Source of the DNA: Nocardioides iriomotensis
Lineage (GTDB): Bacteria > Actinomycetota > Actinomycetes > Propionibacteriales > Nocardioidaceae
Assembly: GCF_004168035.1 (NCBI RefSeq)
Contig: NZ_SDPU01000022.1
Location: 248,001-312,000 of the forward strand
Direction of reading: 5' to 3'
DNA: 64,000 nt
This document shows positions 7,215-49,131 of this stretch, piece by piece (the first letter of the stretch is position 1; every line of letters starts with the position of its first letter). The translations under genes were made by a program, and so were the position numbers. Under the pieces are notes generated by a model. That model searched no databases and was not told where the DNA came from. It saw only the letters and a list, made by a program, of their open reading frames with translations.

Positions 7215-7234
7215 CGAGTCGGCGCATCTTGCCC
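7215..7234 (-). repeat. dispersed 20-bp repeat, single inverted copy
   Basis: On the minus strand this is an exact copy of GGGCAAGATGCGCCGACTCG, the core found three times at 8781-8864 and twice at 48361-48412. It lies in the 80-bp gap after the RNA methyltransferase gene, in the opposite orientation to the other copies. Confidence 0.9.
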
Positions 7235-7261: not shown

Positions 7262-8764
7262 GTGCGCCTGGTCTCGGTGGTTCTCGGGTTCGCCCTCCGG
7301 AAGGTGGGCGTCCTCGGGGTGACGGTGCTCGGCCTCTTCCTCGGCTACCTCCTCATCCAGGTGTTCGTGCCCACCCTCCAGGAGGCCCTGGAGGGTCGCG
7401 ATCGACTGCCCCAGGTGACGGAGGAGCGGAAGGACCTGGAGTCGGACATCGAGGTGCTGGAGCGCGCCACCGCGGAAGGCCGGAGCCAGGCGATCGCGTC
7501 GCTGCGGAGCAGGGTCGCCGCGGAGGTGGCTGCGGCGAGCCAGCGCGTCGCCGACACGAAGGCGGACGTCGAGCGTCGGCGTGCGGAGCAGGACGAGGTC
7601 TGTGGCTTCTGGAAGGACCTGGTCTCGAGCGTCCTCCCGGGTGACCCGTGCGGGCTCGCCGAGAAGGCTGCGGAGACGGCGGAGCAGACGCTGGCAACGT
7701 TCGAGCGGAGTCTCGACCAGGCCAGAAGAAGAGCGGCCGTCCTGAGTGACCCCCAGCTGACCGACGAGCAGAAGCTGGACCAGCTCAGGGCGGACGGCGG
7801 CTTCTCCCAGTCCGAGCAGGAGCTCGCCACCAAGAAATCGGAGCTCAAGAAGAAGCGGGACGAGGAGCGGAGCCTGCGGGAGGCCCAGGAGTCCGGAGCC
7901 GGATGGGTCATCACTCAGTGGGAACGGTCCTGGCGGTGGTTGGCAGCAATCGCTCTGCTGGCTCTTCTCATCCCTCCGGTCCTCCGCACGGTCAGCTACT
8001 TCCTGCTGATGCCGCTGCTGCACCGGGCGCACCGGCCGATCCTGCTGGCGGACGGGTGCGAGAGGGCTTCGGCCAGCCTTCGCTCCATCGACGCCCAGCG
8101 GACCCTGACGATCCACCTTGCCCCCGGTGAGGTCTTGTCGGCACGCTCGGAGCACGTCCGACCCGTGCAGGGGACGGTCCGCGGCAGCCTCCTCTACGAC
8201 AGGAGCGCGCCGTTCGTCAGCTTCGCAGCCGGGCTCTACGGACTGAGTCGGGTCACGGGCGACGAGGCCGGCACCGCGGCGACGCTCGCGACACCGGATG
8301 ACCCGGACTCGTACCTGATGCGCATCGACTTCGAGGACCACCCGGGCGTGGTGATGCATCCCAAGCACGTCGTGGGCGTCATCGGTACGCCGGAGCTGGA
8401 GACGCGTTGGCGCTGGGGCATCCTGTCGCTGGCGACGTGGCAGGTGCGCTACATCATGTTCGCCGGCACGGGGAGCCTGATCGTCCAGGGCAGTGGCGAC
8501 GTCGTCGCGACCGACCCCGGCGGCAGGTCTACGAGGATGGAGCAGCACCTCGTGATGGGCTTCGACTCCCGCCTGGCCGTCGGCGTACGGCGGACGGAGG
8601 TGTTCTGGCCGTACCTGTGGGGCCGGACCTCCCTCGTCGACGACGAGTTCACTGGCCCCCATCCGCTGTTCTGGCAGAAGTCCACCTCCGACGGACCCAG
8701 CAACCCGGTCGCCAAGGCGTTCGACGCCGTCTTCTCCGCCCTCGGCAAGCTGCTGGGCTTCTGA
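7262..8764 (+). CDS. unrecognised membrane protein with long coiled coil and AIM24-like beta domain
   Basis: Protein of 500 residues that I do not recognise as a named family. Visible architecture: a transmembrane helix at about 15-36; a charged heptad-like coiled coil at about 40-215 (Glu/Lys/Arg-rich, with a short CGFWKDLVSSVLPGDPC segment containing two Cys); a second transmembrane region at about 225-258; then a beta-rich soluble domain to the end. That last domain, with FAGTGSLIVQGSGDVVATDP and LVMGFDSRLAVGVRRTE, resembles AIM24/TIGR00266 proteins, but only loosely. The coiled coil would lie outside the membrane between the two helices if the ends are cytoplasmic. Lys codons are denser than in neighbouring genes. 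Copies of a dispersed repeat bracket the gene in inverted orientation, which could mean acquisition as a unit. The start is GTG, with a TAGGCT box 7 nt upstream. Confidence 0.75.
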   Translation: MRLVSVVLGFALRKVGVLGVTVLGLFLGYLLIQVFVPTLQEALEGRDRLPQVTEERKDLESDIEVLERATAEGRSQAIASLRSRVAAEVAAASQRVADTKADVERRRAEQDEVCGFWKDLVSSVLPGDPCGLAEKAAETAEQTLATFERSLDQARRRAAVLSDPQLTDEQKLDQLRADGGFSQSEQELATKKSELKKKRDEERSLREAQESGAGWVITQWERSWRWLAAIALLALLIPPVLRTVSYFLLMPLLHRAHRPILLADGCERASASLRSIDAQRTLTIHLAPGEVLSARSEHVRPVQGTVRGSLLYDRSAPFVSFAAGLYGLSRVTGDEAGTAATLATPDDPDSYLMRIDFEDHPGVVMHPKHVVGVIGTPELETRWRWGILSLATWQVRYIMFAGTGSLIVQGSGDVVATDPGGRSTRMEQHLVMGFDSRLAVGVRRTEVFWPYLWGRTSLVDDEFTGPHPLFWQKSTSDGPSNPVAKAFDAVFSALGKLLGF

Positions 8765-8780: not shown

Positions 8781-8864
8781 GGGCAAGACGCGCCGACTCG
8801 AGCCTGTAGAGAGGGCAAGATGCGCCGACTCGGGACACCTGACAGGGCAAGATGCGCCGACTCG
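8781..8864 (+). repeat. array of three dispersed repeats with 32-bp period
   Basis: Three copies of GGGCAAGATGCGCCGACTCG start at 8781, 8813 and 8845, exactly 32 bp apart, separated by 12-bp non-identical spacers. The first copy has one change (GACGCGCC for GATGCGCC); the other two are identical to the core. The array follows the stop of the coiled-coil gene. The same 32-bp spacing recurs at 48361-48412. Confidence 0.93.
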
Positions 8865-46992: not shown

Positions 46993-48390
46993 ATGGACCA
47001 GACCACCGCGGCCCTGGAACGGGCCCACGAGCTGACCCTCGACTGGCTGGCGACCCTGGACACCCGGCCCGTCCCGCCGCAGGAGTCGATCGAGCGGGTC
47101 GTCGGGGCGCTGGGGGACGCGCTGCCCGAGGAGGGGACCGACCCGGCCGAGGTCGTCGACCTGTTGGCCCGGGCGTGCGAGCCGGCGCTCGTCGCCTCGC
47201 CCTCGGGGCGCTTCTTCGGCTTCGTCATCGGCGGCACCCACCCCGCCGCCCTCGCGGCCGACTGGCTGGTCAGCGCCTGGGACCAGAACGCCGGCCTGCG
47301 CCAGCTCACGCCCGCGCACTCGGCGGTCGAGGACGTCGCGAGCGCGTGGCTGCTCCAGCTGCTCGGGCTGCCGTCGGGGTCGGCCGTCGGGTTCGTGACG
47401 GGCGGCACGATGGCGAACTTCACCTGCCTGGCCGCCGGCCGCGACGCGGTGCTGCGCGGGGCCGGCTGGGACGTCGCGACGCAGGGGCTGCACGGCGGAC
47501 CGCGGGTGCGGGTGCTCGCCGGCGAGGAGCGGCACGACACCGTCGACCTCGCGCTGCGCTACCTCGGGCTGGGCGAACCCGAACCGGTGGCGGCCGACGG
47601 CCAGGGGCGGATCGAGGTGCCGGCACTGGCCGCCGCGCTCCGCTCCGGGTCGGGCGAGCCGACGGTCGTCGTACTCCAGGCGGGGAACGTGCACTCGGGC
47701 GCCTTCGACAACTTCGAGGATGCCGTCCGGGTCGCGCACGAGCACGGCGCGTGGGTGCACGTCGACGGCGCCTTCGGCCTGTGGGCGGCGGCCTCCCCGA
47801 TGCACGCCCACTCGCTGTACGGCGTTGACGGCGCCGACTCGTGGGCGACCGACGCGCACAAGACCCTGAACGTGCCGTACGACTGCGGCCTCGCCGTCGT
47901 CCGCGACCCGGCGGCGCTGAAGGCGTCGATGGGCATGCGCGGCGACTACCTGATCCACGACGACGCGGGGGAGCCGTTCGACAAGGTGCCCGAGATCTCG
48001 CGCCGTGCCCGGGCGATCCCGGTCTGGGCCGTGCTGCGCTCGCTCGGGTCGTCGGGTGTGCGGGAGCTGGTGGAGCGGCTCGCCCGGCACGCGACGGCCT
48101 TCGCCGAGGGGCTCGCCGCGATCCCGGGTGTCGAGGTGCTGAACAACGTGGTGTTCACGCAGGTCTGCGCGTCGTTCGGGAGCGACGAGCGGACCGAGGA
48201 GGTCGTGCGGCGGATGCTCGCCGACGGCACCGCCTGGACGACCGGCTCGCGCTGGCGCGGTCGGAGCGTGCTGCGGATCTCGGTGAGCAACTGGGCGACC
48301 ACCGAGCGCGACGTGGAGCGGACGCTTGACGCCGTGCGCCGAGTCGTCGCGGGGTTGGAGGGGCAAGACGCGCCGACTCGAGCTGTGTGA
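46993..48390 (+). CDS. PLP-dependent group II decarboxylase/aminotransferase-like protein with repeat-encoded C-terminus
   Basis: Pyridoxal-phosphate fold type I enzyme of 465 residues. PLP-binding Lys290 lies in SWATDAHKTLNVPYDCG and the Asp in HVDGAFGLWAAASP. VGFVTGGTMANFTCLAAGRD is the phosphate loop. The pattern is of aromatic amino-acid decarboxylases (group II); the substrate is not clear. ATG at 46993. The last eleven codons, including QDAPTR, are read from the first copy of the 32-bp-period repeat at 48361, so the native end may have been replaced. The downstream alkylation-repair gene converges on it. Confidence 0.9.
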   Translation: MDQTTAALERAHELTLDWLATLDTRPVPPQESIERVVGALGDALPEEGTDPAEVVDLLARACEPALVASPSGRFFGFVIGGTHPAALAADWLVSAWDQNAGLRQLTPAHSAVEDVASAWLLQLLGLPSGSAVGFVTGGTMANFTCLAAGRDAVLRGAGWDVATQGLHGGPRVRVLAGEERHDTVDLALRYLGLGEPEPVAADGQGRIEVPALAAALRSGSGEPTVVVLQAGNVHSGAFDNFEDAVRVAHEHGAWVHVDGAFGLWAAASPMHAHSLYGVDGADSWATDAHKTLNVPYDCGLAVVRDPAALKASMGMRGDYLIHDDAGEPFDKVPEISRRARAIPVWAVLRSLGSSGVRELVERLARHATAFAEGLAAIPGVEVLNNVVFTQVCASFGSDERTEEVVRRMLADGTAWTTGSRWRGRSVLRISVSNWATTERDVERTLDAVRRVVAGLEGQDAPTRAV

Positions 48391-48412
48391 GAGGGCAAGA
48401 TGCGCCGACTCG
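48361..48412 (+). repeat. pair of dispersed repeats with 32-bp period
   Basis: Copies of the 20-bp core start at 48361 (with the GACGCGCC variant) and 48393, exactly 32 bp apart, with a 12-bp spacer similar to the first spacer at 8801. The first copy is part of the PLP enzyme coding sequence; the second ends 4 bp before the stop of the convergent gene. Confidence 0.93.
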
Positions 48413-48416
48413 GCGG

Positions 48417-49118
48417 TCAGAGGTGCTTGAGCGCCTCGCGGCGGGAGAGGCCGGACAGGTGGGCGGGGCCGGTCTCGTGCTCGGCGACGAACGCGCGCAC
48501 CCAGTCGGGGTCGGTGCGGGCGTGCTGGCGCAGCGCCCACCCGACGGCCTTGCGGATCCAGAACGTGCGGCCGTGCGGCGAGTCCTCGAGGTTCTGCTCC
48601 AGCGCGTGGCGCAGCAGGTCGAGGTCGGTGTCGTGCTTGTGGCCGACCTGGCAGATCACGGCGGTACGGCGTAGCCAGAGGTCGTCGTCGACGGCCCAGG
48701 CGCACAGCACCGGCGTGGCCTCCTCGCGGTGCGCGGCCAGGATGTCGCCGACGAGGTGGGTGGCGAGGTCGTCGACCACGTCCCACCAGGCGCCGTCGAC
48801 GACGAGGTCGCGGTACAGCCCGAGCGTCGCGACGTCCTGGTGGTCGCGGTAGAGCCGGTGCCGGGCGACGCCGAGGGCGGCGTACCACTCCTCCCGGTAC
48901 GTCGCGCCGGACCAGATGCCGCGCACGGCGGCCTCCCACGAACGCCGGTCCGGCAGCGGGTGCGCCGGGATCACCTCGCGCAGGATCGCCCGCAGCGGCA
49001 CGGACGTCACGCCGGCGTAGGGCAGGTCGGACTTCATGTAGGCCTGCATGTCCGGCGCCCGCCGCAGGTCGCCGGACGCCTCGATCCTGCGACGAAGCTC
49101 ACCGGCCAGATCGGGCAT
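48417..49118 (-). CDS. DNA alkylation repair (AlkD-like) protein
   Basis: HEAT-repeat glycosylase-like protein of 233 residues: MKSDLPYAGVTSVPLRAILR, RSWEAAVRGIWSGATYREEW, YRDLVVDGAWWDVVDDLATH and DPDWVRAFVAEHETGPAHLS. AlkD-type proteins remove 3-methyladenine and bulky 7-alkylguanine without flipping the base. The start is ATG at 49118, 7 nt after a TACCGT box on the minus strand, so probably leaderless. It faces the PLP enzyme gene across a repeat pair. Confidence 0.93.
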   Translation of the reverse strand: MPDLAGELRRRIEASGDLRRAPDMQAYMKSDLPYAGVTSVPLRAILREVIPAHPLPDRRSWEAAVRGIWSGATYREEWYAALGVARHRLYRDHQDVATLGLYRDLVVDGAWWDVVDDLATHLVGDILAAHREEATPVLCAWAVDDDLWLRRTAVICQVGHKHDTDLDLLRHALEQNLEDSPHGRTFWIRKAVGWALRQHARTDPDWVRAFVAEHETGPAHLSGLSRREALKHL

Positions 49119-49125
49119 AGTGAGC

Positions 49126-49131
49126 ACGGTA
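49126..49131 (-). promoter_or_regulatory. -10 box of the alkylation-repair gene, probably leaderless
   Basis: On the minus strand TACCGT lies 7 nt before the ATG at 49118. Confidence 0.5.

Follow-up and report, generated by a model that had tools for sequence, protein, structure and literature searches.

The short tandem repeats found at two places in a 64-kb window of the Nocardioides iriomotensis genome (the window being the whole stretch of DNA that was analysed) are probably binding sites, set in phase with the double helix, of a protein of the AbiEi_4 and DUF559/MTES_1575 type whose gene such repeats bracket in six relatives, and the arrays that hold no gene would be derivatives of this protein's repeats. 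A broader proposal is put forward more tentatively, with somewhat less than even confidence, namely that these sequences belong to an undescribed Actinomycetes-wide repeat system, in which the gene of a winged-helix/Vsr-like nuclease, lying within phased inverted arrays of its own sites, may seed non-autonomous arrays at the ends of genes through site-directed cutting and copying repair. The spacing rules, the location at the 3' ends of genes, the presence or absence of elements between relatives, the bracketing of the gene and the co-variation of protein and repeat are established by computation.

The original prediction described six core copies with a 32-bp period in the window, and these are real, given that all six match GGGCAAGAYGCGCCGACTCG exactly (at 7215 on the minus strand, and at 8781, 8813, 8845, 48361 and 48393 on the plus strand), against a mean of 0.12 core matches in shuffled windows, none of 100 of which reached six. 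The period is 32 bp in both arrays, and the first copy of each has the GACGCGCC form. The features of the window are as follows.

7215..7234, minus strand: single inverted core copy, GGGCAAGATGCGCCGACTCG on the minus strand; exact match, 27 bp before the gene 7262-8764
7262..8764, plus strand: gene of a 500-aa protein between the inverted copy and the direct array, from a codon-based gene caller
8781..8800, plus strand: core copy 1 of array 1, GACGCGCC form; exact, 16 bp behind the stop codon of 7262-8764
8801..8812, plus strand: 12-bp spacer of array 1; across the family, its length is kept and its sequence is variable
8813..8832, plus strand: core copy 2 of array 1; exact match
8833..8844, plus strand: 12-bp spacer of array 1, read from the sequence
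8845..8864, plus strand: core copy 3 of array 1; exact match
48361..48380, plus strand: core copy 1 of array 2, GACGCGCC form; exact, within the 3' end of the decarboxylase ORF 46993-48390
48381..48392, plus strand: 12-bp spacer of array 2, which provides the decarboxylase stop codon (ORF end 48390)
48393..48412, plus strand: core copy 2 of array 2; exact, the convergent DNA-alkylation-repair gene 48417-49127 having its stop codon 4 bp away

It had also been suggested, from the shared GACGCGCC form of the first copy and the similar first spacers, that the arrays spread as units. The likeness of the two first spacers, which are identical at 7 of 12 bases (by eye), is no more than is usual in this genome, where 45 spacers have a mean pairwise identity of 0.51, and it is thus no proof by itself of such a spread. 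The decarboxylase homologue of one relative from the same genus (G005) has no array at the end of the gene, and behind that of another (G006) there is no more than a single degenerate stretch resembling the core (both by eye). No empty site corresponding to the 48361 array was seen, as the two neighbouring genes never occur together in the stretches of same-genus relatives that were compared.

The gene 7262-8764 is enclosed by an exact 21-bp inverted repeat made up of the 7215 copy and a copy of array 1 (bracket score 21), and its protein has no match in Pfam, NCBIfam or PADLOC. Its GC content is 0.691, against 0.724 for the window, and that of the neighbouring aconitase gene is 0.688. This gene may be a passenger, in the place that is held in relatives by the winged-helix/nuclease-like gene described below.

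In the whole genome of N. iriomotensis (G000; 4.71 Mb in 47 contigs), 78 matches to the core were found at up to three mismatches, some of the isolated three-mismatch ones being possibly due to chance (e.g., L088), against four for a reversed-pattern control, and of 44 distances between neighbouring cores on the same strand all but one are 32 bp. The claim of a dispersed family with a strict period is borne out by these counts: the copies go well beyond those of the window, and their spacing is fixed. Most arrays of this genome consist of direct repeats only. A second core type, GGGAGGTTCGAGCCGGGTCG, is present in 30 copies at the array loci of the same genome (L085-L112), where it often continues the register of the first, all 18 of its same-strand spacings below 100 bp being 32 bp, as are 11 of the 12 steps from the first core type to the second; there is no copy of it in the window.

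Of the 28 stretches retrieved around core matches in this genome, 17 (L087, L089, L092, L094-L096, L100-L103 and L105-L111) have a conserved leader of about 110 bp, starting with GCTGTAACGCGGGGTTATGGACGC, in front of the array; neither of the window arrays has one. The leader contains a GGACGCTTC/GAAGCGTCC hairpin, and it also occurs without such arrays beside it in G104, G191, G246, G002 and other genomes. At L105 and L106, its 5' end is TTGCCACGGCCAA instead of CTGTAACGCGGGGTTAT, and small hairpins are possible from both ends. Arrays also lie at the ends of contigs of the same genome (C5:129, C18:118037 and C28:304), where the assembly may have broken.

Among the relatives, the core is found at one mismatch in 24 of 341 Nocardioidaceae genomes, the exact core being patchy, and in one of the seven genomes of its own genus, and a scan of one genome per species found two tandem core copies only in records of Nocardioides and other Nocardioidaceae (39 stretches). 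The constant part of the repeats is the 11-mer GCGCCGACTCG, while the nine bases 5' of it vary by genome, as in GGGCAAGAY, CGTGCACAA, CGGACACAA and TGTGCAGAT. Inverted pairs of this 11-mer are present in 86 of the 341 family genomes, in 3 of 26 genera and in four of the seven genomes of the own genus, with none for the control, and in none of 219 genomes from three other families of the order. In G001, a genome of the same genus, the core takes a form of its own. The GGGCAAGAY core type is shared by N. iriomotensis with G114, G221 and G296, and this sequence pattern suggests that a core type may have passed between genera by horizontal transfer.

The spacing of the sites was analysed in samples, made up of the pairs among the matches listed for each genome. 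Direct neighbours comprise 298 distinct same-strand pairs from 23 genomes, and their spacings are 22 bp (20 pairs), 30 bp (3), 31 bp (15), 32 bp (252), 33 bp (2) and 34 bp (1), with rare cases at 42 bp (1), 63 bp (1) and 64 bp (3); not one of the 298 falls at 23-29 or 35-41 bp. The sequence identity of the spacers is 31-55% in 13 of the 14 genomes measured (0.74 in G001), from which it follows that their length is kept while the sequence drifts.

Inverted pairs obey a rule of their own. In a set of 88 (the innermost among those listed), a free scan over 6-16 bp gave a best period of 10.5 bp (R 0.70), and when lengths were jittered by up to 6 bp none of 2000 trials was as good; a second set, of 50 pairs listed from 14 further genomes, gave 10.6 bp (R 0.64), with a phase of 5.7, against 6.2 in the first. 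A third set (66 listed pairs from G182, G246 and G320) had R 0.56 at 10.5 bp and its peak at 9.8 bp, perhaps due to eleven 30-bp palindromes with two overlapping sites. As the copies within a genome are related, the Rayleigh values are no strict probabilities, and when each length is counted once per genome R is 0.66 (n=59), 0.58 (n=38) and 0.43 (n=29). Given the fixed direct spacings and the inverted steps of about 10.5 bp, the sites look as though built for a protein on duplex DNA. The earlier idea that a 32-bp spacing would put a bound protein on one face of the helix agrees with the direct spacings of 22 and about 32 bp and with the periods of 10.5 and 10.6 bp of the inverted pairs.

The two arms of an inverted pair are slightly alike, with an identity of 0.696 against 0.645 for shuffled arms (n=134; none of 2000 shuffles as high), an agreement that is below what a selected hairpin would need. 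Some classes of inverted pairs recur, such as those at L260-L266 (G320 and G182), where a 69-bp class with the common centre form CTCGCTTCGCTTCGCGAG and a 30-bp palindrome class are both repeated several times. At L185-L195 (G149), several centres have an inner inverted repeat like TTCTCCACAG...CTGTGGAGAA.

In all, 111 genes were listed that have an element directly at their 3' end; 107 of these were scanned (all but three of L147 and one of L224), and most are ordinary. Five of the 107 are close homologues of one another, with phmmer E values of 7e-67 to 2e-128 (L145 in G320, L148 in G001, L056 in G114, L062 in G252 and L081 in G296), and a sixth, L147 in G182, is the counterpart of L145. These six genes, which code for proteins of 319-334 aa, have arrays on both sides that are mostly directed away from the gene. 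The winged-helix family AbiEi_4 is matched over its cut-off in L148, L145, L056 and L081, and the same four have a below-cut-off match to the nuclease domain MTES_1575, which we take to be Vsr-like; the L062 protein has no Pfam match and an altered nuclease motif.

PADLOC models of AbiEi match the wider set of homologues with E values down to 1e-22 (L325), and the residues E...D...E-x-D-G...H, as in PD-(D/E)XK/Vsr-like nucleases, are kept in most of 34 aligned proteins (by eye), L062 and L126 being the ones that deviate. A profile match to the 3r3p chain ("Mobile intron protein", presumably the Vsr-like homing endonuclease I-Bth0305I) is non-significant (E 0.74). The AlphaFold model has a mean pLDDT of 39.7 and is poor past about residue 60, with all residues beyond 74 below 50, so that the winged-helix end is the usable part. 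Where the bracketed nuclease-like genes are named, their annotation is "DUF559 domain-containing protein".

All six of these partner genes bracketed by the 11-mer (G001, G114, G182, G252, G296 and G320) were found via the arrays. Twenty matches to PF18741 were then chosen without a view of their flanks, 19 of them from genomes with 11-mer pairs, and the 11-mer array stands at none of the 20, the flanks of which have other repeats or none. When seven further PF18741 matches were added, inverted repeats at both ends of the gene, with a score of at least 20, were found for 13 of the 27 homologues and for none of 166 other genes used as controls. In either orientation, the same score was reached by 15 of the 27 homologues and by one control (Fisher p 3e-14), the two additional homologues (L315 and L320) and the control all being direct, and therefore no support for inverted bracketing. 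Two of the 14 homologues that have no inverted bracket at score 20 had miscalled starts, and score 29 and 33 in inverted orientation.

The bracketing repeats themselves differ from one homologue to another. Arrays of GTTGAGTTGGG with a 22-bp period lie on either side of the gene at L323, L324 and L334, and other genes are bracketed by GTTGAGTCGGGCC (L336) or CGAGCAGTCACTT (L325 and L327). At L126, a locus found via the leader, the gene is bracketed by the leader element itself, so that the leader seen in N. iriomotensis is possibly the repeat of a further member. The more alike two proteins are, the more alike their repeats tend to be among the 24 of 34 loci that are bracketed with a score of at least 14 (Mantel rho 0.46, reached in none of 5000 permutations), and this still holds when relatives more than 60% identical are removed (rho 0.38; 20 of 5000). 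The presence of PF18741 is useless as a predictor of the repeats, given that 306 of the 341 family genomes have a match at E 0.001, of which 72 exceed the curated cut-off. No PF18741 match is listed for G137, a genome that has 18 inverted pairs among the 11-mer matches listed.

For N. iriomotensis, about 0.78 Mb (overlaps included) of 4.7 Mb was searched, made up of the window, the surroundings of the arrays and 40 contigs, each taken whole or up to its first 20 kb, and no bracketed homologue was found in it; two homologues, L322 and L342, are unbracketed, and none lies near the arrays (about 3 kb per side, less at contig ends). What had been suggested as a nearby transposase or RAYT has a counterpart of another kind: no RAYT was found in 40 genomes, a winged-helix/nuclease-like gene is bracketed in six relatives, and the N. 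iriomotensis DNA that was searched contains no such bracketed gene. In this species the arrays are perhaps relics, or perhaps dependent on a gene elsewhere in the genome.

Homologues also exist outside the family. Six plasmid records hold one, and three of the four loci viewed there are bracketed by inverted repeats; two DUF559 genes of Tsukamurella tyrosinosolvens (scores 44 and 25) and an Arthrobacter homologue (22) are bracketed, and a Nonomuraea homologue (score 12) is not. Among 72,556 records, the 65-bp Tsukamurella repeat was found at 20 places in 8 records, although it is a palindrome and one copy may count on both strands, and the 34-bp repeat at 5 places in 3 records; all records with either repeat are T. 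tyrosinosolvens of the same sample. For each of the seven dispersed Tsukamurella copies viewed, an annotated stop codon is no more than 30 bp away, and four of these copies are between convergent genes.

A similar location is found in the Nocardioidaceae. After three elements at contig edges were left out, 150 elements from at least 28 genomes were placed, with the codon-based gene caller, in 74 convergent, 69 tandem and 6 divergent gaps and one intragenic position, against 27 convergent, 163 tandem and 116 divergent background gaps (n=306) from the same stretches. This background consists of element-free gaps of at least 30 bp, in which short convergent gaps are under-counted, and the convergent excess is smaller, and still there, when every pair of adjacent genes in the window serves as the background instead (12 of 61 convergent). 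A stop codon lies within 30 bp of 123 of the 150 elements, and 58 of the 69 elements in tandem gaps are closer to the upstream stop than to the downstream start.

Two related genomes, G246 and G191, were compared at five G246 sites, with a flank identity of 86-98%. At the one clean site, where the flanks are 94-96% identical, G246 has about 137 bp, including an element with a period of 22 bp, that G191 lacks, and no target-site duplication was seen; as the G191 allele retains CGAGCGG, loss is as possible as gain. At the second site, the element faces other DNA, at the third an element-like stretch is present in both genomes and rearranged, and the other two have no long counterpart in the G191 stretches compared.

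These observations may be brought together in one mechanism. Each core, of about 20 bp, would be the binding site of one monomer of the winged-helix protein (AbiEi_4 plus a DUF559/MTES_1575, Vsr-like nuclease), and monomers at adjacent sites would share one face of the double-stranded DNA, because the sites are whole helical turns apart, with 22 bp corresponding to two turns and 32 bp to three in direct arrays, and with steps of about 10.5 bp in inverted pairs. AbiEi and Rv2827c, as presented in parts of PMC7319586, bind as monomers to 23-bp inverted repeats with gaps of 3 and 13 bp, a difference of 10 bp, and the simplest reading, by analogy, would have a winged helix of this kind sit on the present sites, which are about 20 bp long and stepped by 10.5 bp.

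The autonomous unit would be the protein's gene with the repeats inverted around it (<<< gene >>>), as in the six relatives, and the gene-free dispersed arrays, those of the window among them, would have arisen as its non-autonomous derivatives, by copying to gene 3' ends as the least harmful place. Paired nuclease domains may cut or nick at the phased sites, and the subsequent repair would copy the array sequence to a new place. That the protein binds these sites, cuts the DNA and causes the spread is what we infer.

Other explanations share part of this evidence. The arrays might serve the host as a roadblock or insulator, with a protein bound there to halt transcription or keep convergent genes apart, and the bracketed gene would be a mere regulator with extra copies at its own locus; a position behind stop codons, with 74 of 150 elements in convergent gaps, and a strict phasing would fit such a nucleoprotein block equally well. 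This is nevertheless unlikely, as the patchy occurrence (86 of 341 genomes, and four of seven in the own genus), the genome-specific 9-mers, the presence and absence of an element between flanks that are 94-96% identical and the inverted repeats at both ends of the gene suit a spreading element better. It is quite improbable that the repeats are the operator of an autoregulated AbiEi-like protein, of the type IV toxin-antitoxin kind, with the dispersed copies as its regulon. The winged-helix part does match AbiEi models, and AbiEi proteins bind 23-bp inverted repeats of their own promoter, as described in passages of PMC7319586; however, the inverted repeats also lie behind the gene, the dispersed copies shun gaps between divergent genes, where only promoters lie (6 of 150 elements, as opposed to 116 of 306 background gaps), and no AbiEii toxin is present in the 25 commonest families of the 107 adjoining genes scanned.

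A role in RNA, with hairpins that act as bidirectional terminators or as 3' stabilisers of mRNA, would draw on the many inverted pairs that are long GC-rich palindromes behind genes and on the slight excess of arm identity over shuffled arms. Such hairpins have no need of 10.5-bp helical steps or fixed spacer lengths, the arms of a pair differ at 30% of the 9-mer positions, and most N. iriomotensis arrays have no inverted copy, so that, above all given the phasing, this is very unlikely to be the main function; Rfam has no match in the window at gathering scores, and L094 has two weak, sub-threshold miRNA matches. A classical REP/BIME family moved by a RAYT of the IS200/IS605 type would account for the same genomic location and for the inverted bracketing of a protein gene, as portrayed in sections of PMC2817692 and PMC3733652. 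Given that no Y1 transposase was found, PF01797 being matched in none of 40 genomes (20 repeat-rich and 20 repeat-poor) and in five of 14 control genomes, this candidate is refuted at this sensitivity and is barely credible. The reading of the cores as sites of the bracketed protein is thus the one that is retained here.

The assertion that these repeats are no CRISPR holds, as 12-base spacers are too short for one; CRISPR spacers are unique and of about 25-40 bp, and some of those found here recur within an array. The further assertion that they are no palindromic REP holds for the protein, which is not a RAYT, and fails for the repeats of many relatives, which are inverted pairs, often long palindromes, behind stop codons, and hence REP/BIME-like. 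In the REP/RAYT (TnpA-REP) system, as described in portions of PMC2817692 and PMC3733652, the gene is bracketed by two inverted copies of the repeat, and gene and repeat co-vary. The present family resembles it, as far as those portions go, in its short high-copy repeats behind stop codons and between convergent genes, in the protein gene flanked by inverted copies and in the co-variation of gene and repeat. It differs from it in having no Y1 transposase, with a bracketed protein that is winged-helix and DUF559/MTES_1575-like, and in sites that are whole helical turns of duplex DNA apart. By analogy, RAYT-REP offers the closest working model.

The CGTC-tagged REPs are REP-like repeats with no known dedicated transposase in the account given in parts of PMC3733652, and the present repeats differ from those so described in their sequence and hosts, and in that a candidate protein is at hand. 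The operators of AbiEi and Rv2827c are alike in the winged helix, in repeats of 20-23 bp and in gaps that differ by about one turn, according to excerpts of PMC7319586; here, unlike there, repeats lie on both sides of the gene and are dispersed at 3' ends, and the protein has a nuclease-like domain. Vsr-like homing endonucleases (I-Bth0305I, 3r3p) possibly belong to one nuclease superfamily with this protein, by a match that is non-significant (E 0.74), and are unlike it in being intron-borne, whereas arrays flank the gene in the present case. MITEs are non-autonomous repeats that are moved in trans by a related autonomous unit, as the present repeats possibly are; these differ in having no target-site duplication at the one clean site, and tandem phased sites in place of a single terminal repeat.

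No literature on these repeats, or on repeat-bracketed DUF559/AbiEi-like genes, was found among open-licence PMC papers, which were the scope of the search, subscription papers and preprints lying outside it; the three papers in which the 11-mer itself occurs have unrelated titles. No system that was tested accommodates this protein, its sites phased on duplex DNA and the bracketed unit, while the genomic behaviour of the family is REP-like.

REP-like repeats are common, and some families, e.g., the CGTC REPs, have no known mover in the parts of PMC3733652 that deal with them. If the present reading is true, a nuclease-like DNA-binding protein that makes and spreads phased arrays would be a route separate from RAYT, using duplex DNA and a nuclease in place of the single-stranded hairpins of RAYT, and a large group of unnamed DUF559/AbiEi-like genes would gain a role. 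Every bracketed gene carries its predicted binding sites together with a spacing rule (22 or 32 bp for direct sites, steps of about 10.5 bp for inverted ones). The family may represent an undescribed way for bacterial repeats to arise and spread.
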